Assembly: GCA_942159475.1 (NCBI GenBank)
Contig: OW804096.1
Coordinates: 38,811,744 to 38,875,743 of the forward strand
From: Sthenelais limicola
Lineage: Eukaryota > Annelida > Polychaeta > Phyllodocida > Sigalionidae
Direction: 5' to 3'
Length of the DNA: 64,000 bases
How positions within the stretch are numbered: position 1 is the first letter of the stretch; each line of letters begins with the position of its first letter. The translations under genes and the position numbers were made by a program. Positions 1 to 43,415 of this stretch are shown here, piece after piece. The notes beneath the pieces are model-generated. The model was not told the origin of the DNA, made no database searches, and saw only the letters and a list, made by a program, of their open reading frames with translations.

Positions 1-3000
1 CCTTGGTGGAAGGTTGATCTGGATGGAAATTATGCCATCCACAAAATTAGGATTCTCAATAGAGGAATCTGTGATTGCTGTATGTATCTGTATATTCTAA
101 TTATTTCATAGGCTTATATACTTATGCATGGTTAATTGAAAGATTCCAATTTAAATCTGCCCTGAATGAAATACGACTCTTCCAAGATAAAATTAACTTG
201 GCAATGAATCACTTAAGATACATCACTGTTAAAATAATAACTGCTTTTGTAGACACAAGACTGAGCAATTTCAATGTGTATGTTGGGTATGATAATCATA
301 CCTATGGGCATAACATCCTTTGTCATCACCAAGCAGCAGCTGTGGGCAGGGGTGCATGGTTAGATGTCACATGTCCTAACATTGCTGGTCGCTATGTCAT
401 CATTCAGATTGTCGGACCAAGTTTATTCAATGGAGAGCAACTACTCAGCATCTGTGAAGTACAAGTATTTGCAAAAGGTAGGGATTTACCTTGCTTACAC
501 TCAGTGGCAGAAATCTTTTATTTATGCAGATAACTTCTGCTCATTTAAAGAGTGACAGACCTACATAAGGCAAGCTAGGCAGTGGTATGGTGTTTGGCAT
601 TGTCTTACAACTGTCAAGCAAATTGACTTGCTGATATATTGACATACAATACAACTCTAAATCATAAAAATGTTTATTGCGATATTTCAATATTTGGCAG
701 AAGACAGGGTTACCCCTTAGCTATATAAAAACATACACTGACATATGCCATAAATTTCTTCTTCCGAATAAACAAATGTAACAAAAACCAAAGAAAAAAT
801 AGCTCCTGATCAGCTAAAGGATGGCCTTCTTTTGAAAGAGCAAAGCCATAGAATCTCTCTATGCACACAGTCCTGGTGTGCACAAGGGAAGTAGGCATTA
901 GCGGCAAAACATGACACAAGAGAGGCCAAGGAGCGTCCATAGCTTGCCAGCACGTTGGCCGCTGTCGGCCACTGTCGGCCACTGTTGCCTCACCTGCTGC
1001 CCTTATTACCCATTAAGAAATTAAGAAATTTAGTGAAGAATTTTAGTTTTGATGAATTATTAAACAAGATATCAATGACAATGCAGTATTTGGGCAAAAT
1101 AGCACACTTGAAAAACTGGCCCGATGTGTCTGGTTTTGGATGTTGGCTATGCAACAAGAATATAATATATCAATGTATTCCTGTTATAGATATACTATTG
1201 GTGGATATGGCTTATCTCAATATCTTAAATATGAAAACTGACAAGGCTATTAATTTCCAAAATACCATTATAACATTGTTCAATAAATACATCACCCAAT
1301 TTCAGTGGTTTCTATAACTAGATGAAACACCCTCAAGTTAAAACCAAGCTCATCCCGCCATGGTACTGACTGAAAACTAGGCGTCAGGCTACCAATGGGA
1401 TATATCTACTGCCTACACTGAATTAGGACCACTAATTTAATGTTAGGTTTAGGGTTATAATAAGCATTGTTATCAATCCATGTACTTCATTCCACCTCAA
1501 GGACGATATAAGAAACCGGTGCATAATAGTGATATAGCAGTATTGGTAGCCTGACAGCTAGTATATAGACGCTTCTACTTGCCACAGGCTTGGTTCGAGT
1601 TGTTTTCACCAGGTGGCGTCAAGATTGACTGGTTTGCATTTACAAATTCTTTAAATTTCAGCACCCCAAATTAACTATATGTGGCATTTATGCACAATAA
1701 ACATTCTGCATCATGCATTTAAAAAAACATTATAGTGATATAATACTGTACAGTTCAATTATGTATTGTGATGTTGCAACACTCAACATTGAAGTAACCC
1801 TATTGTTGGTCATGTGAAAGTGTGAGGTGGATTAGGTGGTGCTTGGCTGTCAATCCAAGGGACCCTTATACAAGCAGCAGTGGACATACAAGGCAAGAAT
1901 GAAATAAACTGATGAAATGCCTGCCTAATAGTAGGCTATTAAGAAGCTAATATTCTTGATAAGATATTGCCCAAAGAAGCCTACCATTCAAACTGTTAGG
2001 ACTGCAACTGAATCGTAAAAACATGCTTTAAAAGAACCATGACAATTCTAAAATTACCTTGCTCTGACTAGCCGCAATTGTGTGGCCTGTACACCCACTA
2101 CCATTTTGCAGTTCTATTTAGTAAAGCATAACAAGGCCCGCATTGGCAGAGCGGAAACGGGACACGCAAACGTTTCACTATAAAATATAATTTGCGTACA
2201 CCAGAGTGTTTGCTCCTTTACATCTGTAGTACATTGTGCCCAGGAAAAGCTGACACAGGTGTTGGTCACCAATGTGCCAGCCTGTAAAACTTAACCTTAA
2301 AGATCTTAAGTCTGCACATGTGATGTGTCACAGGAAAATAAGTCTGAAAATTTGAATATGTTGAGATCTCATTATATTCAAAACGATGAGATCAAGCAGA
2401 TTCTAATGATAGTGAAAAATAAGGATTTCTAAATACTGTTTTTATTTTTGATATATTTATGTTTGAAATATCTGGTTGGACAATTACCAGTAAATTAACT
2501 ATATATATGCTCAATAGGATCTTCTAAAGGCCAGAATATATCTAGTAATTTGGTACATGTAATGATATGACTTGCAGTGCTAGACCCTAAAAAAATCAAA
2601 ACATTCCAAGAAAGATATCTTGTGAAGCAATCACTTTGGAAAATAGTTTTTTTGTGACTTGAAATACATCACATGTAGTATGGAGCTTTAGGGCTTCTTG
2701 TTCAAAACATTCATCCCAGAATGAATGGCGTGAAGTCAGTTGTAGCTGTAGTCATGCTGTAGTAAAGTCCAAAATAGTGGTTTGGTTTGAATGATTGTAT
2801 TTGTATTGTTGTCATATTCAATTTTTATATTGTTGTCATATTGAATTTTGTGAGGTGAAGAAGGGAAATCATTACAAAATGCTTTTTCCTTGACCAGATT
2901 TACCAACCACCTTGAAAGGCAAAAGGGCTGTGCTTGCATCTGGGCAACGTTTAAAAGAGCACCTAGTTGGAACATCGTTTGAGGTGTCTCATCTTGGCAA

Positions 3001-3172
3001 GTGTGCACAGAGATGCTGGAGTGCAGAAAGTGAAAAGATAAAATCATGTGTAGCTTTTAGCTTCTGTAAGGAACATGGTGTTGGTACATGCATTTTAGGT
3101 GACTCTTACAGCCCAACCTTTGTGGAGAACTATAGTAGCTGCCGCACCTTTAATATAACAATAAATGTCTAA
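1..3172 (+). CDS. Fucolectin-domain plus PAN-domain secreted lectin, copy 1 (5'-truncated by window edge)
   Basis: Exons seen: 1-79 (partial), 253-477 and 2898-3172; stop TAA 3170-3172. Exon 1 gives PWWKVDLDGNYAIH...RILNRG, the WW-x-VDL and NRG signature of the eel-fucolectin/tachylectin-4 (FTP) fold. Exon 253-477 gives TRLSNFNVYVGYDN through SICEVQVFAKG, the rest of that beta-sandwich. The last exon is a PAN/apple-like module with a regular cysteine pattern (KCAQRCW, SCVAFSFCKE, GTCILGD, SSCRTF). Splice sites are clean: donor at 80 after T of a split codon, acceptor TTTTGTAG at 245-252, donor GGTAGG at 477/478, acceptor GACCAG at 2897. All junctions are phase 1, as in shuffled extracellular modules. 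The signal peptide and start lie off the left edge. FTP lectins bind terminal fucose and often serve innate recognition; that role here is inferred. It is closely similar to the copy at 16132-18490. Confidence 0.86.
890..2200. other. Extra ~1.3 kb in the last intron of lectin copy 1
   Basis: The flanks (825-890 and 2205-2300) align by eye with 17540-17660 of the second copy, but this stretch has no counterpart there. It is either an insertion in copy 1 or a deletion in copy 2. A 120-codon open frame starts near 955 beside a short tandem duplication (GTCGGCCACT). It has no recognisable domain and I do not call it a gene. Confidence 0.5.
2317..2675. mobile_element. Family-A MITE in the last intron of lectin copy 1
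   Basis: The ends are inverted: CATGTGATGTGTCACAGG at the left, and TGTGACTTG...ACATCACATG at the right. The inside carries family-A landmarks (AGATCTCATTATATTC-like block; GGACAATTACCAGTAAATTA; a GGTACATGT block; TCTTGTGAAGC). About 360 bp. It occupies the same site as the element at 17706-18048 in the paralogue. Confidence 0.8.
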
Positions 3173-3325
3173 CTTATTCCTGCATATTAAGTCACTATAC
3201 AGACAATTCATTATAAACATTTCTCATCTAGTACTATTTCCTTAACTTGCTACTTGGCAGAAAACCTTAGGGATGTTGACATGTCCTGAATGCCAATGGA
3301 CTGTTCTACAGTTTTTATTTATTTC

Positions 3326-4998: not shown

Positions 4999-6106
4999 GT
5001 AAGTATATTTATAACTATTTGTGACACATGGGTGAGTGTGGGTGAATTTGCGCGACATGGACGATCATAATAGCATTGTCAGGTGCGCAAAAATTACCAG
5101 CATTTACACCTTCAACCTCCGTCAATCGGCGTGCAAAAATAGCGGGGGCAGTCATGGTCATGGTTTATGACCAGGGCTTTATTCATGTAGCGCTGGTCAT
5201 TGGAAACCCAGCCCAGCCACTATACTACCAGGTGGTACTAGTATACACTAAGGTAAAGCTAAGTCTAAGTCTATAGGTCATGGAGCTAAACATAGAACAA
5301 AAGCAGTCATGTATAGTCAGGTGTTCTAGTTGACTGTCCTGGCCTAGAGAGACGATGTTATGAAACAGTTTTCTATCTGAATTACCCAATGTATTGTTTC
5401 AATTTTGGAGCGTTGGCTGGTCTTCCCCTGTGATATGTACTCATGCTTGAAATATACCCCTTTGAAAGATAAAGTTAAATGAATTAAATGTTGATGTCTT
5501 GCATTTGTCAGATATGTACATGCTTATCATACCTCATAGCATTGAAATGCATGGAAGCAGCGCTCCTTTATGCTGGTTTTTCTCAGTGAAAGTAAAAGCT
5601 CTGGTGATAGTAATTATATTCGTAAATGATTAGTTAAAACTGTACCTCATCTCATTGAAATGACCAGCAAACAGTACTATGATCTTTAGTATCAGTTCTC
5701 ATGAATAATCCATGTTCAACTTTGTTTAAGTTTTGTGTCATTCATTATTGTTTTTATATTTAGATGAATAAAGGATCATTGCAAGTGAGTGAGTAAGTGA
5801 CGGCCGTGACAAAATGTGCAGAGCATTGAGCGTAATGGCGTCGATCACGTCCAGACGTGCCTAAAGTCAACGAGCCAAAACTAGCCAGTTTTTATCACCA
5901 CAAATCAGGATTTTACCAAAAAGAAAAAGCTTGGACCCTACCTTTCGGCTGTGCGGACACTTGTAAAACAATCAGCTGTGTGTGTAATCCTCATTTCGAC
6001 GATATTTGTTCTTTTTTCAACTCTCAATCGATCACAGTGGGCGATATTGGAGTGGTTGTGTCTGAACTTCGCGCCAAACACAACAAAGCCTCAGTCATGT
6101 ATAACA

Positions 6107-7934
6107 ATGAAGCGTAGAGCTAGTGCGGGTACAGGCTCCTCTCCCGATCAGAAGAAAGCTACCAAGCCCTCTGAGAATCCTGATCTCTGCAATTCCGATG
6201 ACATACTTGATAGTTCGAACACTGAAATTGTGAGTAATATTACCAGCGATCCCAAGATGAATCTTGAAAGTGTTTCCGCAGATTTGATTGCAGCCAAAGC
6301 TGATATTGACGATGTTGTTGAGGGCTATAATGACATGGCTGAATACGCTGAAAGCACCCTAACTTTTGTAAACGAATTAGCTGCCTCACATAAGGGGGAA
6401 ATTAAGGAAAGGCACGCTCTACAGGAGCTTACTAAATCACTTGCTAAGAAGGTCACTTCCTTGGAATCCATGGTGGGAAATCTCACCCTTGAGATGAAAG
6501 TGCAGAAACAAATCAATAACGACCTGGACACTAGGCTGCGACAGAAATCTGTGGTTTTCAGCGGTGTAAGGGAAATTAGAAATGAGAGTGATGAAACTAC
6601 ATGTGCTAAGATCGTGAGCCTCCTAATTAAGGACTTCAGAGAAAATCGCTTTGATGAAGTGTATAGGATTGTAAGCAAATTTTCTGGTTAAAGCAAACGT
6701 CCCGACCCCCTTGTGGTTGTTTTCAAGTCGATAAGCGACAAGAAAAGTTTCATGAGTCAAAAGGGAAAACTGTTTAACAAAAATCTATTCCCTCCAGCCA
6801 CATTTCCTTCCATCAAATACTGGAACTTCGAGGACGATGTTAATCCAGAAGTGCGAAGGGCTAGAGGAATGATGAGGCTAATTACTAAAAGGGCACAGGA
6901 GAAATCAATTGACGCTAATGCAAAAGCTAAGGGAGATAAGGTCCAAATCAAAGGTATAATGTATGGTATGGCTGATATGGACACGCTTCCCGAATGTCTT
7001 CATCCTGAATCACTCAAAGTTCAGAAAATCGGGGGATGCATAGCCTACCAGGGTCCTTACGCGTAACTTATTCCACTGCGATATTATGATAAAGAAACTG
7101 CCTTTCTCTTCAGTGGAACATGGTTTTGTATATATCAAAGCACTCAAGAATGGTCGTTTGAGCACTGCCAAAAGGGTCGCTGACATGAGAGATCCTTTTG
7201 CCATTAAGGAAACCAGCAGTAAGATTACAGTCGACGATGAATGGAGAGCTAAAGAGGAATCCTATCTCAAGTCGGTGATGAAAGCCAAGTTTGTTAAAAA
7301 CCGGAGCTTATGTATGTCTCTCATGGCGACTAAAGGTATAGAGCTAGTTGAGGCCACGGCTGACACCAAGTGGGGCTGTGGAGGCTTTCTTGGCTCCGTG
7401 GGCTTGAGATGCCATACTTGGAAGGGCGAAAATCGTCAAGGCAAACTTCTCATGGCAATAAGGGAAGAAATGCAAGAGCAGTTCAGCGACGACTACAAAT
7501 TATGTACGCCCACCTCTCCTCCTCCTCAACCATCGCTGCTTAAGGACTTATCACCAGGCACTGTAGAAAAGTCTCAGCCGAGATATTTCCACAGGTATCC
7601 GTCCAAGGAAGAGAAGTCACTGTCTAGAGAGACACAGGGGGTAGCTGACACATCCATAGATGAGGCTGACGTATCCGATGAATGCGATATGGAGCTTGAT
7701 AGCTCTGCCTCTTCGGCCAACTCAACTTTAAACGCATCGGCTGCTCCCTCGAAACCCACCCTTCGGCGAAGAGGGCTCAATATGACGGCCAGTACACCAT
7801 ATGATACACAGTCTACAAGTCGAATCCAGCGTTGTATAAACAGAATGGACATGTCGGCAGTAAACGACTCACTGAACGAATCTAGAATCGAACTCAAAGC
7901 TGCAAAATCTGGGCACACGCCCTCGTGGAAATGA
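6107..7934 (+). pseudogene. LINE ORF1: coiled coil, RRM-like region, NADAR (YbiA-like) domain, disordered tail; broken
   Basis: The start is ATG 6107 (MKRRASAGTG). Acidic residues precede a long heptad-rich coiled coil (about 6290-6540), then an RRM-like segment (KSVVFSGVREI...VYRIVSKFSG, then RPDPLVVVFKS), the usual nucleic-acid-binding plan of LINE ORF1. From about 7020 the protein matches the NADAR/YbiA fold: LFHCDI, SSVEHGFVYIKALKNG (Glu-His 7116-7121), MRDPFAIK, MKAKFVKNRSL, LVEATADTKWGCGG (Trp-Gly 7371), GENRQGKLLMAIREEM (Asn 7431). NADAR enzymes process ADP-ribose compounds; one branch removes ADP-ribose from guanine in DNA. The loop between WG and GEN is longer than in YbiA. A Ser/Pro/acidic tail ends in TAA/TGA-closed frame at 7934. 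Lesions: in-frame TAA 6689-6691 and a frameshift near 7061-7066. Role in the retrotransposon life cycle is inference. Confidence 0.85.
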
Positions 7935-8834
7935 TAGTCAGTCACATATTCCGCCATATTGCTGAGTTGCCTCTTGGTAATGTTTATCTGGTACGGTAAT
8001 CCTTGACCTGTCAAACTATAATGAGTGCAACTATTGGTATACTGGTATATCACTGTCCAAAGTAGAGATTATATTACTAGTTGTGAAAACATGTCAGATT
8101 TACTATCCTAATGTCCTCCTAGTAACAGCGCGCCTATAGCCGTTTCGATCAGCTGTTTGGGTTAACTGGGTCAGATGAGTGCAAATAGTTCACGGTATTT
8201 GTTATGTGAGGTAAACAGTACTCAACGCTGCGGCAGGAATGGCAAGTGTATAATTTATCTCACCTTCTCAAATGCGTTCTGCTATTAATCCCTAGCTTTA
8301 ATTAATTGATATCATCTCGTTAAAATTTTGTAAGCACTTGACTGTGCGTAATTGTAAAGGTTTGATTTAATTATGTATTGACAACCATTGATGATAGCGC
8401 GATTATTTAGTGCGGGCTTAAAATTCCAAGATGGAGTCGGCCGGACATTTCGCAAGCAGAATGTGATTCAGCAAAGAGGTTGGACGTTATTTACTGGTTG
8501 AACTGTTATTCCATGAACATCATTAGCGCCTATGGTAAGCACTTACTGTTTTCTGCAAACTATATGCGTAATTTTAAGGTGATTGTGGTGTTAGTTGTAA
8601 GATAGTTACCGCTAGTTGCGGACAAAAAGCGTGCTCGTATGTATGTCAACCTGACAATGCTATTGCTAACCCTAGCGAGGGAAATCATGACTCATATTTT
8701 ATATATGCCGATGTTGTGTACAGTTTTTACAATCCGCCCTATAGGAATGTTCATGAAAATGATATTTTGCGTACTAACGCTCCTTTCAAAAGCTAGCCGA
8801 GATTATGATTTGATGACAAAATGTATTCCAAAAA
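7935..8834 (+). other. Inter-ORF region of the LINE
   Basis: No long open frame. A 50-codon stop-free stretch in the ORF2-downstream frame starts at 8644 (CQPDNAIANPSEGNHDSYFIYADV...) and stops at TAG 8794. It has protein-like composition and may be a decayed N-terminal part of ORF2 or a third small ORF. The rest is AT-rich with no visible function. Confidence 0.4.
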
Positions 8835-11706
8835 ATGGAGTTGGATAGCCCTGAACATGTAAGCGCTTGTAAAGGTCTAACAGTGGCATCTCTAAACGTT
8901 AGATCATTGCGAAAAAAGGTGTTGGAGGTATATGACACTCTTCTTCAAGGGTATACTAAAATCCTGGCATTACAGGAAACCTGGTTAAATGTTGCTGATC
9001 TTAACTCTCATCTGATTATAAATAATAATTTTGATTTGTTTAGAGTTGATCGAGCCACTACTGTAAATGGGCAGGTGAAACTGGGAGGAGGGTTGTGTTG
9101 CTATGTAAGCTGTGATTATGAATCAGACCCGCATATTTTGGAAGGGAAAAACTCCCGATATTGAAATGCAAGTTATTTCGATTAAGCCTGGTAGGAGAAA
9201 AAACATTATCCTGGTCAATTTATATCGACCTCCTATGGGGGACAAGAAGGTATTTATAGATAGGTTACAAGAAACCGTCGATTATATCAAGGTGAACTTT
9301 AAAAATTATCCGATTCTGATTTGTGGGGATATCAACCTGAATCTCCTCGATAAAAATAATCAATCTGTTACTGAATTCTCTCACCTCATAGGAGAACTGT
9401 CCTTGACACAACTGATCAACTGTGCAACTAGGTATAGTCACTCAGGTTCAAGTCTTCTTGACGTTATGATTACCGACCACTGCTACATAAAAAAAGCAGG
9501 GGTTATAAACACAAACTTATCTGATCACTGTGCTGTATATCTGACCATAAAAAAGATGTATGTTCCTGTCACTAAATCTTCTACTCTGGGAAGAAGATAT
9601 GATCGTATTAACTGGCAAGAATTGGATAATTATATAAACAGAGTCTTTACCGTTGACAATTTCTTCTTGCAAGACACTGGTTCGCCTGAAATTATCTGGG
9701 CACGAATGAAGGATTATCTATTAAACTATCTTGAATTTGTTTGTCCGATTGTAGAAATGGTCACAATTACTAGAGGTAAAATGGTACTCGACGCCCAGAC
9801 TCATGCCTCCATTAAGGAGCGGGACCGTCTGTTCAAAAAGGCGAGAAGAACCAACCTTGAAGTTGACTGGGTAAATGCAAGACAATCTCGACGTATAACT
9901 GCGGGTTTAGTTAGGCGAGCACGTAAAACTCATGTGGACAACCTTTTTAGAAATGCAGGTCAGGATAGCAAAAAATTCTGGAGAGAAATTAATAACCTTG
10001 TAGGAAAAAACAACTCTCATAAAGTACCCGACAGCTATTTGCATGATGGTATTGCTTTGAAAGGTCAAGACGCGAGTAATGGTCTCAATATAGTTTTCCG
10101 AGATATGGGAAATGTAAAAGAAGCACCCTCTGGTGACTTCTCCGGGTTCTTGAATAAGAATGTTGTAATAAATGTAAGTACGAGGATTTCTATCACTGAA
10201 AAAGCTGTATTAGAACTAATTGATGATATAAATGTGTAAAAAAATAGTGGATTCAGCTGGGTCGATTCCAAGGTCCTGAAATTCTATTTACAGAGGTTAT
10301 CAAACCCCTTTACCAAGTTATTAAAGGCGTGTGTGCATTGTACGAGTATACCTAAGGAATGGAAAAGCTATAATGTTATCGCCTTACCAAAAGGAGGCAA
10401 CCCCCGGTTACTTGGGAATAAAAGACCTATTGCTCTTGTACCTATCCCCTCAAAAATTCTTGAAAACTTCATGTGTATATCTTTGAGAGACCATATGGAT
10501 TTGAACAATCTGTTTGTCCCACAACAAGGGGGCTTTAGGCCGGGCCACTCGACCAATCTATCTGTTCTGGAGTTTACCAAGCCTATAATCAGAGGAATTT
10601 ATAAAGGGGACCTCACTGTGGCAACATACTTTGACGTTTCAAAAGCGTTCAACTGCATAGACCACGTCATACTTGAAAAGAAATTGCAGCACTATAAAGT
10701 AAACCCTATTTTAATTTTGTTGATCATGGAGTATCTTGCAGACAGAAAGCAATCAACTTACTTGAACAATGTCCTTTCCACACCGATTGTTATCAAAAAT
10801 GGCGTACCTCAAGGAAGTGTAATTGGGCCTCTCCTTTTCTTGATCTACATCAATGATCTGCCTGGTTGTATTGAAAATATTGGTGTCGGTGACAACATCA
10901 AAATGACCATCTATGCAGATGATACCGCTGTTACAATCACGGGAGGGGACCTAGATAGATGTATGCTGGGTGCTCAAACGGTGGCTTCTAATATTGCTAA
11001 ATGGATGAACCATAATAAGCTATGCGTCAACTCCAAAAAGAGCATGGTCCAAATCTTAGGGTCAAAACACCGTTTGAAAAAAATCAATTTCAATACCCTA
11101 GGTAATATCTATATCAATGGGTCGGCCATAACTAAGGCAAAGTTAGTAAAATACCTGGGATATACAATCGACTCATCATTGAGCTTCAATGACCACTTTG
11201 TACGAATGAAGGGTCTGGTCCAGGCCAAGGTTAATCAATTTGCACGTATCCTTTATTACATAGATGTGAATATTGCCAGGGCCATTGTAAAATCCCATGT
11301 TATCTCTCTTACTGAGTATGGTTTGCTAATGTATAATATGGCTAATGCTAATATCATTGGTAAAGTCCAAACATCTATAAACAGGGCCCTAAGACTTGTT
11401 TTTGTAAATCAAAACTTATCGACCCTAGAAATAAAAAGGTTATTAAAAATTGATGACCTACAAAAGAGAGGAAACATGGTAATTCTGAGTCTAATGGCCA
11501 TAAGAGTGAAAAACCCTGAGTTAACTGAAATTATGCCTAGGCAAACTAGACTTGCCGCTGGGATTAATCTAAAAGTCTTCCAACCTACATCTGACAAATT
11601 TCTTAGATCTCCTCATGTCCAAGGGCCAATACTATGGAATAAACTACCTCCCTTGGAAAAGGTTAAACCTTGGAGTAAGTTAAAATTATATTTGAAGACA
11701 CAGTAA
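8835..11706 (+). pseudogene. LINE ORF2: APE endonuclease and reverse transcriptase; broken
   Basis: Endonuclease motifs in order: SLNVRSL (about 8890), LQETWLN (8970), LGGGLCCYV (9085), NLYRPP (9220), GDINLN (9325), LLDVMITD (9455), LSDHCAVY (9515). A linker follows, then the reverse transcriptase: IPKEWKSYNVIALPKGG (10345), KRPIALVP, QQGGFRPGHST, TYFDVSKAFNCIDH (motif A), GVPQGSVIGPLLF, and YADDT at 10912-10926 with both catalytic Asp. The C-terminus ends WNKLPPLEKVKPWSK...LKTQ, typical of Jockey/CR1-like elements. It nicks target DNA and reverse-transcribes the LINE RNA there. Lesions: a one-base gain in the A-run 9147-9151 switches frame, and an in-frame TAA at 10237-10239 lies between endonuclease and polymerase; the frame stays open on both sides. 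Otherwise the domains are well preserved, so the insertion is not ancient. Confidence 0.94.
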
Positions 11707-12178
11707 TTGCGGCAGACACGTGTGCATATTGTTCCTGTAAAATGTATGTTACGCAGACTTGATTATTATATCTGGAACTATCTCCGGATTTTGTGATTCT
11801 CACTGATAGAGGACTTGATAAGGCCAATGGTCTATTCAGACTAATTATATCATTGTTTTATAAATTCCGGATTGATCGATTGATTGTATTGTATTCATGT
11901 ATGTTGAACCATTGTATTTTAGTTGGCAACAAAACTAAAAAAAAAAAAAGAACTAGTATTAAATACGGTCTACTTCTTGTCTTGGAGGCACATTATATTA
12001 AAGGAGTTTCTTGTAAAATCATGTAAGTATAATATTGTCATATTAGATCTTTGCTAATGTACTGATGATTAAACTGTTATTGTAAATTGTATCTACAGCA
12101 GAAATACTTTCGGACATTGAAAGGTATCACACTTGTGAAATTTGTTTCGAAATAAAATCTTTTTAAAAAAAAAAAAAA
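11707..12178 (+). other. LINE 3' UTR and poly(A) tail
   Basis: AT-rich 3' UTR after the ORF2 stop, with an internal A-run at 11937-11949, AATAAA at 12151-12156 and a terminal A14 at 12165-12178 that marks the 3' insertion boundary. Confidence 0.8.
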
Positions 12179-16131: not shown

Positions 16132-18490
16132 ATGCTATCACTGGTACTCTTCCAGTTTGTTTTCATGTGGACATCAGGCAAGATAATATCTTTATTAATA
16201 TCAGAAATTAAAAGCTATACTGCATGCAAATATTCCTAGTAGCTGCTAACATTCCTAGTGTTCTTGGTTGGACCTTTTAAAGTAAGTAAGATGGTAATTT
16301 CCCAACTAGGAGTTTTCCTGAGGTTAGCTTTTAAATGGTATTTATCCTGGCAAACAGTTCTAACATATATATATATATATATATGTCATTATTAGATGAC
16401 AGACAGGATTCAATTAAAAAACTTTTAGAAGTGTGACCTAAACAAAAGCCAGAGCTCAATGAGAGAAAAATAGACATATTTCAACCCTGTGTAATTTGCA
16501 TTTCTGAAATTCAATATGAATTCATCTTTACTTTTAAACATTTAAAAAAGCTAAATGGGTTTCTTCAAACAAGGTAGTGACTCCGAATCATAGAATCAAA
16601 ATAAACCTGGATTGAAAGGTATTACAGTTTAAAAAGATTTTCTTTATCATCCAAAGACATTTGTCATTCTTGCCATTACCCATCGTAGATGAAATAAATG
16701 GAACCTTATTATTCTTTTGACATAAATAGGAGTGGATGCATCCAACATAGCTTTGGGAAAGAAGACATATCACTATCCTCTTGGCAATGCAGGGCCACAG
16801 GTAGTTGTGGATGACAATCTCAACACTAACCATTATGGTGGCTCATGCATACACACTGGTTCAGCAAATGTGAATCATAACCCTTGGTGGAAGGTTGATC
16901 TGGATGGAAATTATGCCATCCACACAATTAGGATTCTCAATAGAGGAATCTGTGATTGCTGTATGTATCTTTATATTTTGATTAATTCATAGTCTTGTAT
17001 GAATGGTTAATTTCAAGATCCCAAATTTAATCTGCTCTGAATAAGATAAGGTTGTTCCAAGAAGAAAGAACTTGCGTTGGCAATAAATCACTTAAGATAC
17101 ATCACTGAGCAGAAAATATCTGCTTTTGTAGACACACGACTCAGCAATTTCGATGTGTACGTGGGGTATGATAATCATACCTATGGGCATAACATCCTTT
17201 GTCATCACCAAGCAGCAGCAGTGGGCAAGGGTGCATGGTTAGATGTAACATGTCCTTACATTGCTGGTCGCTATGTCATCATTCAGATTGTCGGACCAAG
17301 TTTATTCAATGGCCAGCAAATACTCAGCATCTGTGAAGTACAAGTATTTGCAAAAGGTAGGGATTTACTAACTGATTTATTTTGTTTACACTAATTGGCA
17401 GAAAGTTGTGATTTGTGCTGATCACCTCTGCTCATTTTAAGAGTAACAGATCTGCATGAAGTGAGCTAGACAGTGGTATGGTGTTTGGCATTGTGTTACT
17501 ACTGTCAAGTTCCTGACCAGCTTGATTACAGTATTCTTGTGAAAGAACAAAGCTGTAGAATCACTCTTTAAACACAGTGTAGTTTAAACAAGGAGTGCTT
17601 TGTTCTTTCTATCTGTAGTACATTGTGCCCAGGAAAAGCTGACACACTAGGGGGTTACCAATGTGCCGACTAGGAAAACTTAACCTTAAAGATCTTAAGT
17701 CAGCACATGTGATGTGTTACAGGAAAATGAGTCTGAAAATTTGAATATGTTGAGATCTCATTATATTCAAAACGATGAGATCATGCAGATTCTACTGATA
17801 GCAAACAAAGGACATCTAAATAGTGTTTTATGTTTGGTATATAAATGTTTAAAAACAAGTTCGAAATTTCTGGTAGGACAATTACCACTAAAGTAACTAC
17901 ATATGCACCATAGGATCATCTTCTAAACACAGGAATATATTGTGTAATTTGGTACATGTGCTAGACCCTCCAAAAATCAAAATACTCCAAGAAAGAGATC
18001 TTGTGAAACAATCACTTTGGAAAATATTATTTTTGCAACTTCATCACAGAAGGAATGGCAACCTGATTTTAGTTGTAGCTGTAGTCATACTGTAGTAAAA
18101 TCCAAAATAGTGGTTTGTTTGGTTTGTTTATTGTATTTGTATTTTTGTCATATTCAATTTTGAATTTTGAAGGTGAAGAAGGAAAATCATTACAAAATCC
18201 TTTTTCCTTGACCAGATTTACCAACCACCTTGAAAGGCAAAAGGACTGTGCTTGCATCTGGGCAACGTTTAAAAGAACACCTAGTTGGAACATCGTTTGA
18301 GGTGTCACATCTTGGCAAGTGTGCACAGACATGCTGGAATGCAGAAAGTGAAAAGATAAAATCATGTGTAGCCTTTAGCTTCTGTAAGGAACATGGTGTT
18401 GGTACATGCATTTTAGGAGACTCTTACAGCCCAACCTTTGTGGAGAATTATAATGGTTGCCGCACCTTTAATATAACAATAAATGTCTAA
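16132..18490 (+). CDS. Fucolectin-domain plus PAN-domain secreted lectin, copy 2 (complete model)
   Basis: Proposed coding exons: 16132-16177, 16730-16960, 17132-17356, 18216-18490; 777 nt, 258 residues. Exon 1 starts at ATG 16132 and encodes a hydrophobic signal peptide, MLSLVLFQFVFMWTS. It ends at CAG/GCAAGA, a GC-type donor, in phase 1, which fits the phase-1 acceptor AATAG/GAGTGGATG at 16729. Next come the lectin residues VDASNIALGK, DDNLNTNHYGGSCIHT, PWWKVDL, NRGICDC, TRLSNFDVYVGY. Eel fucolectin binds fucose with one His and two Arg; the matching candidates here are the His of CIHT and the Arg of NRG and TRL, though spacing differs by a few residues and the usual DCC pair reads ICDC. 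The PAN module is in the last exon. The product is likely secreted. Exon 1 is the least certain part; the other exons match copy 1 closely. Confidence 0.84.
16178..16179 (+). other. Non-canonical GC splice donor
   Basis: The first intron of lectin copy 2 would start CAG/GCAAGA, the accepted consensus for GC-AG introns, and end at AG 16728-16729. The choice is supported by phase and by the signal peptide it joins, not by transcripts. Confidence 0.55.
17706..18048. mobile_element. Family-A MITE in the last intron of lectin copy 2
   Basis: Left end CATGTGATGTGTTACAGG, right end TTGCAACTTCATCACAG, with the same internal blocks as 2317-2675. It is at the matching position of the matching intron in the paralogue. 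Confidence 0.78.
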
Positions 18491-18609
18491 ATTATTCCTA
18501 CATATTAAGTCACTATATACACAATTCATTATAAGGATTTCTCACCTTGTACTACATTCTTAACTTGCTACTTTGTGGAAAATCTGAGGGAGTTGACATG
18601 TCTCATATC

Positions 18610-32830: not shown

Positions 32831-33955
32831 TAATAATAAATCATAATTATAATTATAATTATAATTATAACTTGTCAATTATAAATTATAAATTATCGAT
32901 GTATCGATCTTAATATAAGGTCTTGCATGCCTTTCATAACAATGTTAGTTTACCTGTCTGGTAATCCTACATTCTCTACTATCTATCTCAATTATTAATT
33001 ACAATTTCATCTTCTACCGTGGATAGATACTCATCATTCTCAACTATATATGTTGTTTTTAGATATTGCTTAAATTTACTTATAGTATCCATATTTTGTA
33101 CTTCCGTCGAGACACTGTTCCAAAGATTTGTTAATACATACACATACAATCTTTTGAATAGTTCATTTTTTGGCAAAGGCACAATTAATTTTTTACCACC
33201 TGATAAACTTCTAAGGTTAATTTTCCTTCTATCTAAGTTTTCATCAACCCTTGTTCTTGTGAAGGCAAGTTCCAACAGATGGCTATTCCTCCTCGTCGAC
33301 AAGGATGGGAGGTTTAGCGTTTTATGGATTTCCTTCGTGTTAGACAATTTCGGGAGCTTTAAGATGATTTTAAGAGCCGAATTTTGTATGGTTTGTAGTT
33401 TTTGTAATTGTGCTTGCGATGAAGAACTGTAGAACAAGTCTCCATAGTCAAGAATAGGGAGGATCATTGTTTTATACAATAACAGGAGTGTGTGCCTGTC
33501 ACACACATTAAACAGTTTAGATAAAGCATGTATCTTTGACTTTACCGTGTACAATTTCTTACGTAGGAACACCTTAAAATCAACTCGCTCATCAATTTCC
33601 ATCCCAAGGAACTTATACTCAGCTACATTCTCTAGATTTTGACCCTCTATTTGATAGTTAACTGTATTCTTTATATCTTTCTTCGATCTTATGGTTAAAC
33701 TCTTACATTTTTTTATATTCAACGAAATCTTATTTATGGCACACCATTGAACAATATTGTTTAAATCAGTTTGCAAATCATCATTTTTACCACTCCCTAG
33801 CATTCTTTCTTTATACAAAACAGTGTCATCTGCAAACAACTGTATATAACTCTTCTGTACCACTTTATATAGATCGTTGATATAGACAATAAACAACACC
33901 GGCCCCAGACTAGTGCCTTGAGGTACTCCACATATTACTGGCTTTAGGGAGGACA
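32831..33955 (-). mobile_element. 5'-truncated LINE, second family, with intact 3' half of ORF2
   Basis: An uninterrupted minus-strand frame ends at 32988. It encodes LKPVICGVPQGTSLGPVLF (motif B), QLFADDTVLYK (catalytic Asp pair, near 33825-33842), KISLNIKKCKSL, EYKFLGMEID and a C-terminus with LYKTMILPILDYGDLFY and NLWNSVSTEVQNMDTISKFK. Motif A and the endonuclease are missing, so the insertion is 5'-truncated at about 33955; residues beyond that are host flank read in frame. A (TTATAA)-type repeat at 32840-32896 is the likely 3' tail. The open frame of over 300 codons suggests a young insertion. Confidence 0.88.
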
Positions 33956-34632
33956 AATTATGTGGACAATGGAGCAAATCCTCCAAGACTCCAAAATAAA
34001 TGCATATATATTCCATTTTTATATTTCGTTCGTTTCCCCCTGAACTCCTCCTGCTTCAGTGATTTCACTTATTATTGCTTCAAACTCTGAACTGGTCTAA
34101 ACATATGTATTAAGAGCAAGAAAATATTGATAATTTCAGTCCTATGAAAAATGTCAAGTAAGAGAGGTGCCTTAAGAAAGGCTCATAGGAGAGAAAAATG
34201 TCAAATCTGCTCTGTTAATGAAATTTCAAATTTCAATTGAAACAATGCGTCAATTTGATGAGAATGTACCTTTAACTCTCACTAAAAACATTTTGTGTAG
34301 ATTATATCCCGAATGAAATACTTTTCGTTTTCAGTGAAATCGATGAACTCCCTTTAATTCTTCATCAACAGAATAATATCCAACTATTGCATAATATACA
34401 ACTATTATGTATTCTGTTTCATCAGTATCTCCATTCGTCACCAACTTTTTTCAGAGAGTGAGAGGTTTTATGTAAAAGGGAAATGAAAATGTAAAAAGAG
34501 TAAAACATAAGATATAGTAAATAGGAGAAGATGAGTAAATAAAGATTATTGAGTGTGAGTTTACATAAATACCTCCAAACAGTAAACAAAATTAAAAAGA
34601 TGGAGCACTTCTTAGATAAGTGGAACTACAAT

Positions 34633-41434: not shown

Positions 41435-41989
41435 AGTAGAATAGCACAGAATGACATTGGCTCATAGATGGTACCTTATATCACTAGACCAGATCTTGAT
41501 CTCTGCACCTCACCTCACTCCGGCGCCTAATTTATATTATATACTATATTACTTGCAAGGTTATTGATATAAATATAAGATTTTCAAGTCTATGGTATTG
41601 ATTTTAAGATATAATATAGGTAAGTTCTTTATGGGGATAATTACAGTTCAAGAATGAGTGAGATCAATGTTACTACGACCGTGACGGTGTGTATGCCATT
41701 CAAAGTAACTACTTAGAGTGTCAATTATTAAGTAATACATTTATGTTCAGGTTCGGCAATGTTACATAACACTATGTGTGTGTATATGTATGAATGCATG
41801 TATAATTGTTTTGATAATGTTTAGATTTAAAGTAAGACATTTTCACTTTTAAGGCAGTTTTATAGCCTTTAATAGCCAGATACATTAGATGTATTATGTA
41901 TCTATGTGTGTACAAAAACAACAAAGGAAATATATAGAGTAAGTGAAATATAATTCCTATCATTGCTATCCATCAACACATATCCCCTC

Positions 41990-43415
41990 CTCCACTAGCC
42001 CCCTTTCATACCCTTACCCCATCTCGCCCCTCCCCTCAACCACTCACCCCCTCTCATACTCCAACCCCATTTCGCCCCTCCTCTCCTCCACATCCTCTCC
42101 CTCCATCTAGCTCCATCTCGCCCATCCCCGCTTACCCCCTTTGAAACCCTCAACTCATCTTGCCCGTCCCCACTCACTCCCTCTCATACTCTCACCCCAT
42201 CTCACCCTTCAATCTCTCCTTTACTCCCCCCTCCCCCAGCTTACCCCTGCCCTCCTCCACTCGCCCCCTCTTAGCCCCACACCCCTCACCCCTGTACTCC
42301 TCTACTCACCCCTCTCATACTCTCGCCCCATCTTGCCCTTCCATTCTCCATTCTCATACCCTCAACTAACCCCCTCTCATAACTTCACCCCATCTCACCC
42401 ATCTCCTCCTCCTGTGTGTATTCCTTATTTACCCCTGCCCTCCCCATCTCACCCCTTCCCTCCTCCACTCAGCCCCTCCCATACCCACACCCTATATCAC
42501 CCCTACACTCACCCCCTCCCATACCCACACCCCATCTCACTGCTCCCCTCCTCCACTCAGCCCCTCCCTCCCACCCCTTCCCTTATCAACTCTCCCTCTC
42601 CCATACCCTCACCATATATCACCCCTCCCCTCATACCCTCCCATACCCACACCATATATCTCCCCTCCCCTCATACCCTCCCATACCCACACCCTATATC
42701 ACCCCTCCACTCATACCCTCACCCCATCTCACCCCTCCCCTCATCCACTCATACCCTCCCATACCCACACCCTATATCACCCCTCCCCTCCTCCACTCAG
42801 CCCTTCCCATACCCACACCCTATATCACCCCTCCACCCACCCCCTCCCATACCCCCACCTAATCTCACCCTCCACTCATACCCTCACCCCCTCCCATACT
42901 CACATCCCATCTCACCCCTTCTTTTATCCACTCATCCCCTCTTGCATACCCTCACCCTATATCACCCCTCCACTCATACCCTCCCATACCCACACCCATC
43001 TCACCGCTCCCCTCCTCCACTCATCCCCTCCCATACCCACACCCCATCTCACCCCTTCCCTTATCAACTCACCCCCTCCCATACCCTCACCCTATATCAC
43101 CCTTCCACTCATACCCTTACCCCATCTCATAAATTATTGTCTCTATGGAGATTTTGCATTGACATTGACTGTCAAACCTATGATGCAGTGGATTTCTGCT
43201 AGCAACGACTGGAATATTTTAAACGCATTTCAACAGCCTCCACTCAGCCCCTCCCATACCCACACCCTATACCACCCCTACACTCACCGCTCCCCTCCTC
43301 CACTCACCCCCTCCCATACCCACACCCCATCTCACCCCTCCCATACCCACACCCCATCTCACCCCTCCCATACCCACACCCCATCTCACCCCTCCCATAC
43401 CCACACCCCATCTAT
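41990..43415. repeat. C-rich minisatellite, ~27-bp unit
   Basis: The plus strand is almost free of G for ~1.3 kb. Units vary around CCCATACCCACACCCCATCT then CACCCCT; 43312-43412 holds nearly perfect 27-bp copies. A non-repeat island splits it at 43127-43240. The long proline-rich open frames in all three plus frames are a by-product of the repeat. Confidence 0.92.

Follow-up and report, generated by a model that had tools for sequence, protein, structure and literature searches.

A YbiA-type NADAR domain in ORF1 of LINE retrotransposons of the annelid Sthenelais limicola

The closest described counterparts of the element reported here are Repbase Tx1 families of long interspersed nuclear elements (LINEs) of the oyster Crassostrea gigas, in which the proteins of the first open reading frame (ORF1) appear to hold a YbiA-family NADAR domain; the accessible text of PMC12477816, in which they are described, also records one Ectocarpus Gypsy lineage with NADAR in Pol and suggests processing of RNA intermediates for the NADARs of retrotransposons. 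We analyzed a stretch of 64,000 nucleotides (the window) from the polychaete Sthenelais limicola (GenBank assembly GCA_942159475.1, contig OW804096.1, positions 38,811,744 to 38,875,743, forward strand), which holds a LINE copy with a NADAR domain in ORF1, together with relatives of this copy across the genome. NADAR is almost certainly a real and selected part of ORF1 in these elements, as supported by the kept domain and reading frame, its repetition, near-identical copies on several chromosomes, conservation of the catalytic residues, divergence in step with ORF2, and purifying selection. The oyster elements likewise carry a YbiA-family NADAR in the LINE ORF1 of a lophotrochozoan, and precede those described here; thus, the fusion is not wholly new. 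The accessible account of them does not report copy numbers, residues, or data on selection and recent activity. The NADAR of the Ectocarpus Gypsy lineage is also borne by a retrotransposon, but in Pol rather than in ORF1. No other paper joining NADAR with retrotransposons was found among the matches listed, preprints lying outside the search.

Gain of domains by ORF1 is itself an established phenomenon: mosaic ORF1 evolution is described for 448 Jockey-superfamily elements (PMC4120745, as far as accessible), in which PHD, esterase, and Tnp22 domains accompany an ORF2 with apurinic endonuclease (APE) and reverse transcriptase (RT), the same kind of gain as here. The words NADAR, YbiA, and DUF1768 are absent from the accessible text of that study. 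For NADARs in general, the available excerpts of the literature report that an oomycete member of the YbiA subfamily removes ADP-ribose from guanine in DNA, and that CARP-1 is a guanine ADP-ribosyltransferase of a clam; the role of animal NADARs is stated to be unclear in the accessible text of PMC11125620.

The earlier note on this DNA, made from the letters alone, read a NADAR fold from a series of motifs, and these are present in frame and in order (SSVEH, KA, DPFAIK, W, AKFVKNRSL, LVEATADTKWG, and GENRQGKLLMAIREE). Positions 7044-7931 (+) of the window match Pfam NADAR (PF08719) with E=8.6e-20 and 72.1 bits (cut-off 35.1) over profile positions 30-162 of 163, the first ~30 positions falling before a frameshift at ~7044-7066. 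The YbiA-type NCBIfam model TIGR02464, which is defined as a riboflavin-intermediate N-glycosidase, also matches (E=8.5e-16), with 58.6 bits against its own cut-off of 73.7. In the PDB, the single window sequence finds Escherichia coli YbiA (2b3w, E=5.1e-5), and a profile of 15 LINE NADARs finds the Phytophthora nicotianae NADAR (8bau, E=5.5e-23) and 2b3w (E=3.2e-18); these two NADARs are the sole two distinct PDB sequences matched by the profile at E up to 0.1. A chance match is dismissed by the Pfam score of the window and then by the PDB matches of the family profile. PF08719 was above cut-off in all five open ORF1 frames scanned, and with the window NADAR as tblastn query, 122 phage records and 29 plasmid records proved to hold matching NADARs. 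No relative came from scanning the contigs of viral and bacterial genomes for patterns of the window domain, the RT, or A1. The protein database held one short relative of the window domain (P0001) and none for the full frame. P0001, a public protein of 76 amino acids, contains NADAR; it is 39-41% identical along its whole length, shares the long loop and the string GENRQGKLLM with the LINE NADAR, and is perhaps another LINE ORF1 elsewhere.

The genome searched is an assembly of 1,130,627,326 bases in 161 contigs. PF08719 gave 5561 candidates (not a validated count). Scoring covered the top 150 of these, every one of which was above the cut-off, and 148 lack a stop. A search with the window protein gave 4670 candidates (also not validated, and of unchecked overlap with the PF08719 list), of which 132 were scored. 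Apart from the window copy itself, window 7044-7931 is best matched by L050 and L051 (both 96% identical) and L052 (94%). ORF1 is one open frame through NADAR in L051 (721 amino acids, or 611 from the chosen Met) and L052 (701 amino acids), and ORF2 is open in L050 (964 amino acids), L051, and L052 (965 each). A block reaching from window 5832-5839 to 12172-12174 is common to the window copy, L051/L079, and L052/L081 at 96-97% identity; because the flanks are unrelated, this ~6.3-kb block represents one mobile element. L050/L080 is 5'-truncated at window position 6966. The copies thus show traits of an APE-type LINE, in that they move as a unit, include a 5'-truncated member, and have A-rich ends. 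The possibility of two unrelated neighbors rather than one element was ruled out by this whole shared block, and also by an APE-RT ORF2 downstream of the NADAR ORF1 in all seven of the other families described next.

The 30 best-scoring copies sort by eye into seven families besides that of the window, giving eight diverged families. For each of the seven, the 4 kb on the downstream side of one copy were read, and endonuclease and RT motifs were recognized by eye in every case. ORF2 is open in five (854, 1002, 904, 839, and 862 amino acids, four of the stretches beginning inside ORF2) and broken in two (L041 and L043), so that with the family of the window included ORF2 is open within the stretch read in six of eight. 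Pfam searches of three downstream stretches placed RT above cut-off in all three and APE in two, the third scoring 27.3 against 27.4 bits. Three F1 copies, each from a different chromosome, share 99.2-99.3% identity across ~6.1 kb (compared as two overlapping pieces), two F4 copies are 99.5-99.7% identical over ~6.3 kb, and in both families near-identity stops at both sides of the element. Given these five near-identical copies across chromosomes, NADAR-bearing elements have very likely moved recently.

The association of NADAR with ORF1 also holds when copies are gathered without NADAR as the query. A search with the stretch of ORF1 that precedes NADAR gave 1729 candidates, of which 150 were scored: 82 have a NADAR hit directly downstream, and 20 of the remaining 68 (drawn from the 32 with long open frames) were read, all with NADAR in frame. 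An ORF1 relative that halts before NADAR, which the earlier note had set against its own reading, is found in none of the 102 examined among the 150 scored, the remaining 48 being outside the comparison.

The earlier note looked to intact copies and purifying selection, and both are borne out. The ratio of nonsynonymous to synonymous divergence (dN/dS) was computed by the Nei-Gojobori method for 37 within-family pairs from 24 of the 30 best-scoring copies. Between lineages, NADAR has dN/dS of 0.03-0.08: 0.03-0.04 for L009, L011, L012, and L017 against L021 (dS 1.2-1.4) and 0.07-0.08 for L018 and L019 against L024 and L028 (dS 0.45-0.49). For the same between-lineage pairs, the ORF1 part ahead of NADAR gives 0.04-0.09 and the tail 0.25-0.54. 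NADAR dN/dS is 0.06-0.07 for L009 against L011, L012, and L017 (dS ~0.2). Many far pairs have saturated dS and no dN/dS value. The window copy gives 0.45-0.68 against L050-L052, as expected because function has been lost in it. Across the eight families, identity is 28-58% in NADAR, 15-59% in the part before it, and 25-49% in ORF2 (with the ORF2 of F5 and F7 in pieces, and only 82 amino acids of the part before NADAR in F7), and the most conserved 40-amino-acid block of five fully aligned ORF1s lies in NADAR (54%). NADAR distances track ORF2 distances (r=0.75, as high in 23 of 5000 permutations). The LINE NADARs may have a single origin: on the domain tree one change is needed, but with support of 50/0 and 54% of bootstraps; on an RT tree of seven NADAR-LINE RTs and 45 public relatives, the NADAR-LINE label needs two.

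Residues named in the accessible text of PMC11543638 were placed on the 30 best-scoring copies, a set biased toward well-kept copies by its selection on score, and on two control sets not chosen by Pfam score, one of 29 copies selected for similarity to the window and the other of 20 copies gathered with the upstream part of ORF1. E43, K75, W89, E125, and W133 are kept in all 30 best-scoring copies; position K50 is Lys in 23, Arg in 6, and Ile in 1, and position D130 is Asp in 24 and Asn in 6. All seven residues are present in the window copy. In the window-likeness control the counts of 29 are E43 26, K50 29, K75 28, W89 29, E125 29, D130 28, and W133 28; in the upstream-part control the counts of 20 are E43 20, K50 19 (with one Arg), K75 20, W89 20, E125 18, D130 19, and W133 19. 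Pooled, the controls keep E43 in 46/49, E125 in 47/49, and K50 as Lys in 48 and Arg in one of 49. Conservation of the Glu, Trp, and Asn set across copies, as the earlier note anticipated, is therefore found. F5 (L010, L015, L016, L022, L023, and L034) has Arg in place of the catalytic Lys and WA in place of the usual WG; its NADAR frames lack a stop despite the exchange, and its substrate is possibly different. The P. nicotianae NADAR and YbiA, homologous to the LINE domain by profile, share E43, K50, and E125 with it; in the comparisons made, neither has a retrotransposon context, whereas the LINE NADAR sits in ORF1. The NADAR antitoxin associated with DarT1 (BC4488 subfamily) belongs to the same superfamily but uses Asp at position E125, a mark of BC4488/DarTG1 NADARs that occurs in none of the 30 copies. 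Because these copies and the window all have Glu there, the LINE NADAR is assigned to the YbiA subfamily rather than to the DarT1-linked one; no DarT partner is shown for it.

The copy in the window is a decayed, dead member of its family: ORF1 is broken by a stop at 6689-6691 and the frameshift at ~7044-7066, and ORF2 by a frameshift at ~9109-9164 and a stop at 10237-10239. The statement of the earlier note that ORF1 runs into NADAR consequently fails for the window copy and holds for L051 and L052, in which the frame is open. Its attribution to an APE-type LINE is upheld by endonuclease and RT matches downstream. The parts of the copy are as follows.

5832..12172, + strand: whole LINE copy, ~6.34 kb; bounds are the limits of homology to copies with unrelated flanks
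6107..6691, + strand: first piece of ORF1, closed by the in-frame stop at 6689-6691; L051 and L052 are open there
6692..7066, + strand: second piece of ORF1, resembling an RNA recognition motif (RRM) and C-terminal domain by eye only; profile searches gave no confirmation
7083..7472, + strand: NADAR domain (PF08719), 130 codons; the first strand lies upstream in another frame
7116..7118, + strand: Glu at the catalytic E43 position of the P. nicotianae NADAR, by alignment (role from the accessible text of PMC11543638)
7137..7139, + strand: Lys at the K50 position, by alignment (same source)
7350..7352, + strand: Glu at the E125 position, the YbiA-subfamily residue, by alignment (same source)
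7473..7934, + strand: C-terminal tail of ORF1 and stop (frame 7044-7934); in other families the least constrained part of ORF1
8817..9164, + strand: N-terminal endonuclease piece of ORF2; the open ORF2 of L050, L051, and L052 begins here
9109..10239, + strand: endonuclease and linker of ORF2 after the frameshift, ended by a stop (PF14529, E=1.6e-7)
10240..11706, + strand: reverse transcriptase of ORF2 (PF00078, E=4.6e-30), with the motif GVPQGSVIGPLLFLIYINDLP
12165..12178, + strand: A tract behind AATAAA, the 3' end; L050, L051, and L052 likewise end in short A tracts

The gap between ORF1 and ORF2 (7935-8816) is unusually long at ~880 bases; it is the element's own, because it lies inside the block aligned with L050, L051, and L052. 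Visual inspection of the termini of the window copy, L051, and L052 showed no clear target-site duplication; a 9-bp candidate at 6073/12181 was dropped, since homology to other copies begins at ~5832. Elsewhere in the window, a second RT remnant belonging to another LINE lies at 32991-34055 (-) (PF00078, E=1.5e-13; motif GVPQGTSLGPVLF), and diverged duplicated blocks pair 1-618 with 16882-17509 (86%) and 2204-3285 with 17593-18602 (81%). An ORF at 75-533 is without a match in Pfam (E up to 0.01) and is fucolectin-like by eye only, unconfirmed; positions 41980-43413 hold C-rich tandem arrays of several periods.

The RT motif GV[PA]QGS..[GA]P is present in the window copy and in all seven other families. 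We take this motif to be of the Jockey/CR1 type, and ORF2 of the NADAR LINEs thus looks Jockey/CR1-like, a tentative assignment of clade made from the RT motif. The aligned human L1 chain differs from the NADAR LINEs, with GTRQGCPLSPLLF at this position (L1 QGCPLSP). Tx1, by contrast, belongs to the L1 group. The C. gigas elements are classed as Tx1 (PMC12477816, as far as accessible), and so appear to differ in class from the elements with Jockey/CR1-like motifs found here, the contrast being one of label and motif. The coiled coil and RRM that the earlier note assigned to the front of ORF1 could not be confirmed: Pfam (including PF02994) and a PDB profile search (including 2yko) gave no RRM or L1 ORF1p match in ORF1, coiled-coil-type families gave weak matches below cut-off in one of five ORF1s scanned, and a crude heptad proxy indicated the N-terminal part in three of five. 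An L1-like layout of the ORF1 front is therefore unproven and a matter of visual reading only.

With its catalytic positions kept, the LINE NADAR is probably an active hydrolase. As a YbiA-type domain within ORF1, it is predicted to ride on the ORF1 particle and to remove ADP-ribose from RNA or complementary DNA (cDNA) of the element itself, a reading to which we give a probability of roughly 45%. By this reading, the ORF1 protein would coat the element RNA, as L1 ORF1p does, and NADAR would thereby be present in many copies on the RNA and near first-strand cDNA. The enzyme would cleave the bond between the base and the distal ribose, as other NADARs do on guanine-ADP-ribose; the substrate would lie on the element's nucleic acid, with a putative host ADP-ribosyltransferase (ART) as the writer. 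The RNA or cDNA would be shielded from this putative transferase, aiding survival of the element in its host.

Several observations weigh against this reading, foremost those concerning the ligand. In the P. nicotianae structure R79, Y84, and R93 contact ADP-ribose (accessible text of PMC11543638); of the ADP-ribose contacts, R79, Y84, and D86 are kept in 0/30 best-scoring copies and R93 in 2/30, and in the control sets positions R79 and R93 are never Arg and Y84 is a gap, D86 being Asp in 19/29 and 5/20 copies (24/49). R79 and R93 are basic in both 8bau and 2b3w and mostly lost in LINE copies, and among seven phage or plasmid NADARs the R79 position is Arg or Lys in six and the R93 position in all seven. 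The contacts R79, Y84, D86, and R93 do not define NADAR, as YbiA, which keeps R79, differs at three of them (Y84, D86, and R93, the last being Lys) and also at K75. Given this loss in LINE copies of contacts that are basic in phage and plasmid NADARs, the substrate of the LINE NADAR may differ or may bind in another way, and on these residue comparisons the foremost reason to be cautious about a plain ADP-ribose reading is the loss of the two pyrophosphate-binding arginines (R79 and R93). Furthermore, some NADARs act on riboflavin intermediates, or poorly on DNA, according to the sources as far as accessible, and a K50R variant of the E. coli C7 NADAR is active in vitro without rescuing cells from toxin (PMC11543638, accessible text). 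Three young pairs have NADAR dN/dS of 0.26-0.39, with few changes, and for the upstream ORF1 part values in young pairs are as high as 1.07 (L024/L028) and 0.80 (L013/L014). An AlphaFold2 model of the domain was poor (predicted local distance difference test 50.6, from two sequences) and was not used.

The kept catalytic residues would also serve an enzyme that removes ADP-ribose from host or element proteins and so blunts PARP/ART restriction of the ribonucleoprotein, as proposed for animal RNA-virus macrodomains and NADARs; we regard this as unlikely, because the NADAR activities reported in the accessible sources concern bonds to bases or riboflavin intermediates rather than to proteins. 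Action on NAD- or ADP-ribose-type ends of the element RNA, in RNA repair or cap processing, would agree with the processing of RNA intermediates proposed in PMC12477816 and with the link between NADAR and RNA repair in PMC9503650 (both as far as accessible), yet no RNA ligase, KptA, or 2H domain was found in the 14 stretches scanned by Pfam, and this role appears quite improbable. According to the accessible text of PMC8535693, PARP1 and PARP2 accumulate at the nick made by L1, and L1 retrotransposition falls by 80% when both proteins, or RPA, are lost; NADAR might accordingly act at the integration site during target-primed reverse transcription, on ADP-ribose that PARP1/PARP2 have put at the nick or close to it. 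These data come from L1 and not from a NADAR LINE, and because PARPs help L1 an eraser at the integration site would need to act late, which leaves such a function improbable to a slightly greater degree. Retention of the fold as a non-enzymatic binding or assembly module of ORF1p, with which the loss of several ligand-contact positions would agree, is very unlikely, since a mere scaffold would not need both catalytic glutamates, and these are invariant in 30/30 copies, although NADAR identity between the families concerned is only 28-58%.

The removal of ADP-ribose from the element's own nucleic acid can be taken further, to NADAR as an ancient and essential core of ORF1 in this LINE lineage that serves counter-defense by erasing host-written ADP-ribose from guanines of element RNA or cDNA; in this full form the proposal is doubtful. 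If true, nucleic-acid ADP-ribosylation would be an animal defense against transposons, and many 'animal NADAR genes' would be retrotransposon ORF1s. In these elements an animal NADAR is found in a defined carrier, exists in many natural variants, has recent copies that are open, and is under strong selection; its role is thus directly testable by a retrotransposition assay. As a caution, NADAR matches in annelids or mollusks may be transposon ORF1s. With this domain, the short list of those captured by LINE ORF1 would also gain an enzyme of ADP-ribose metabolism.
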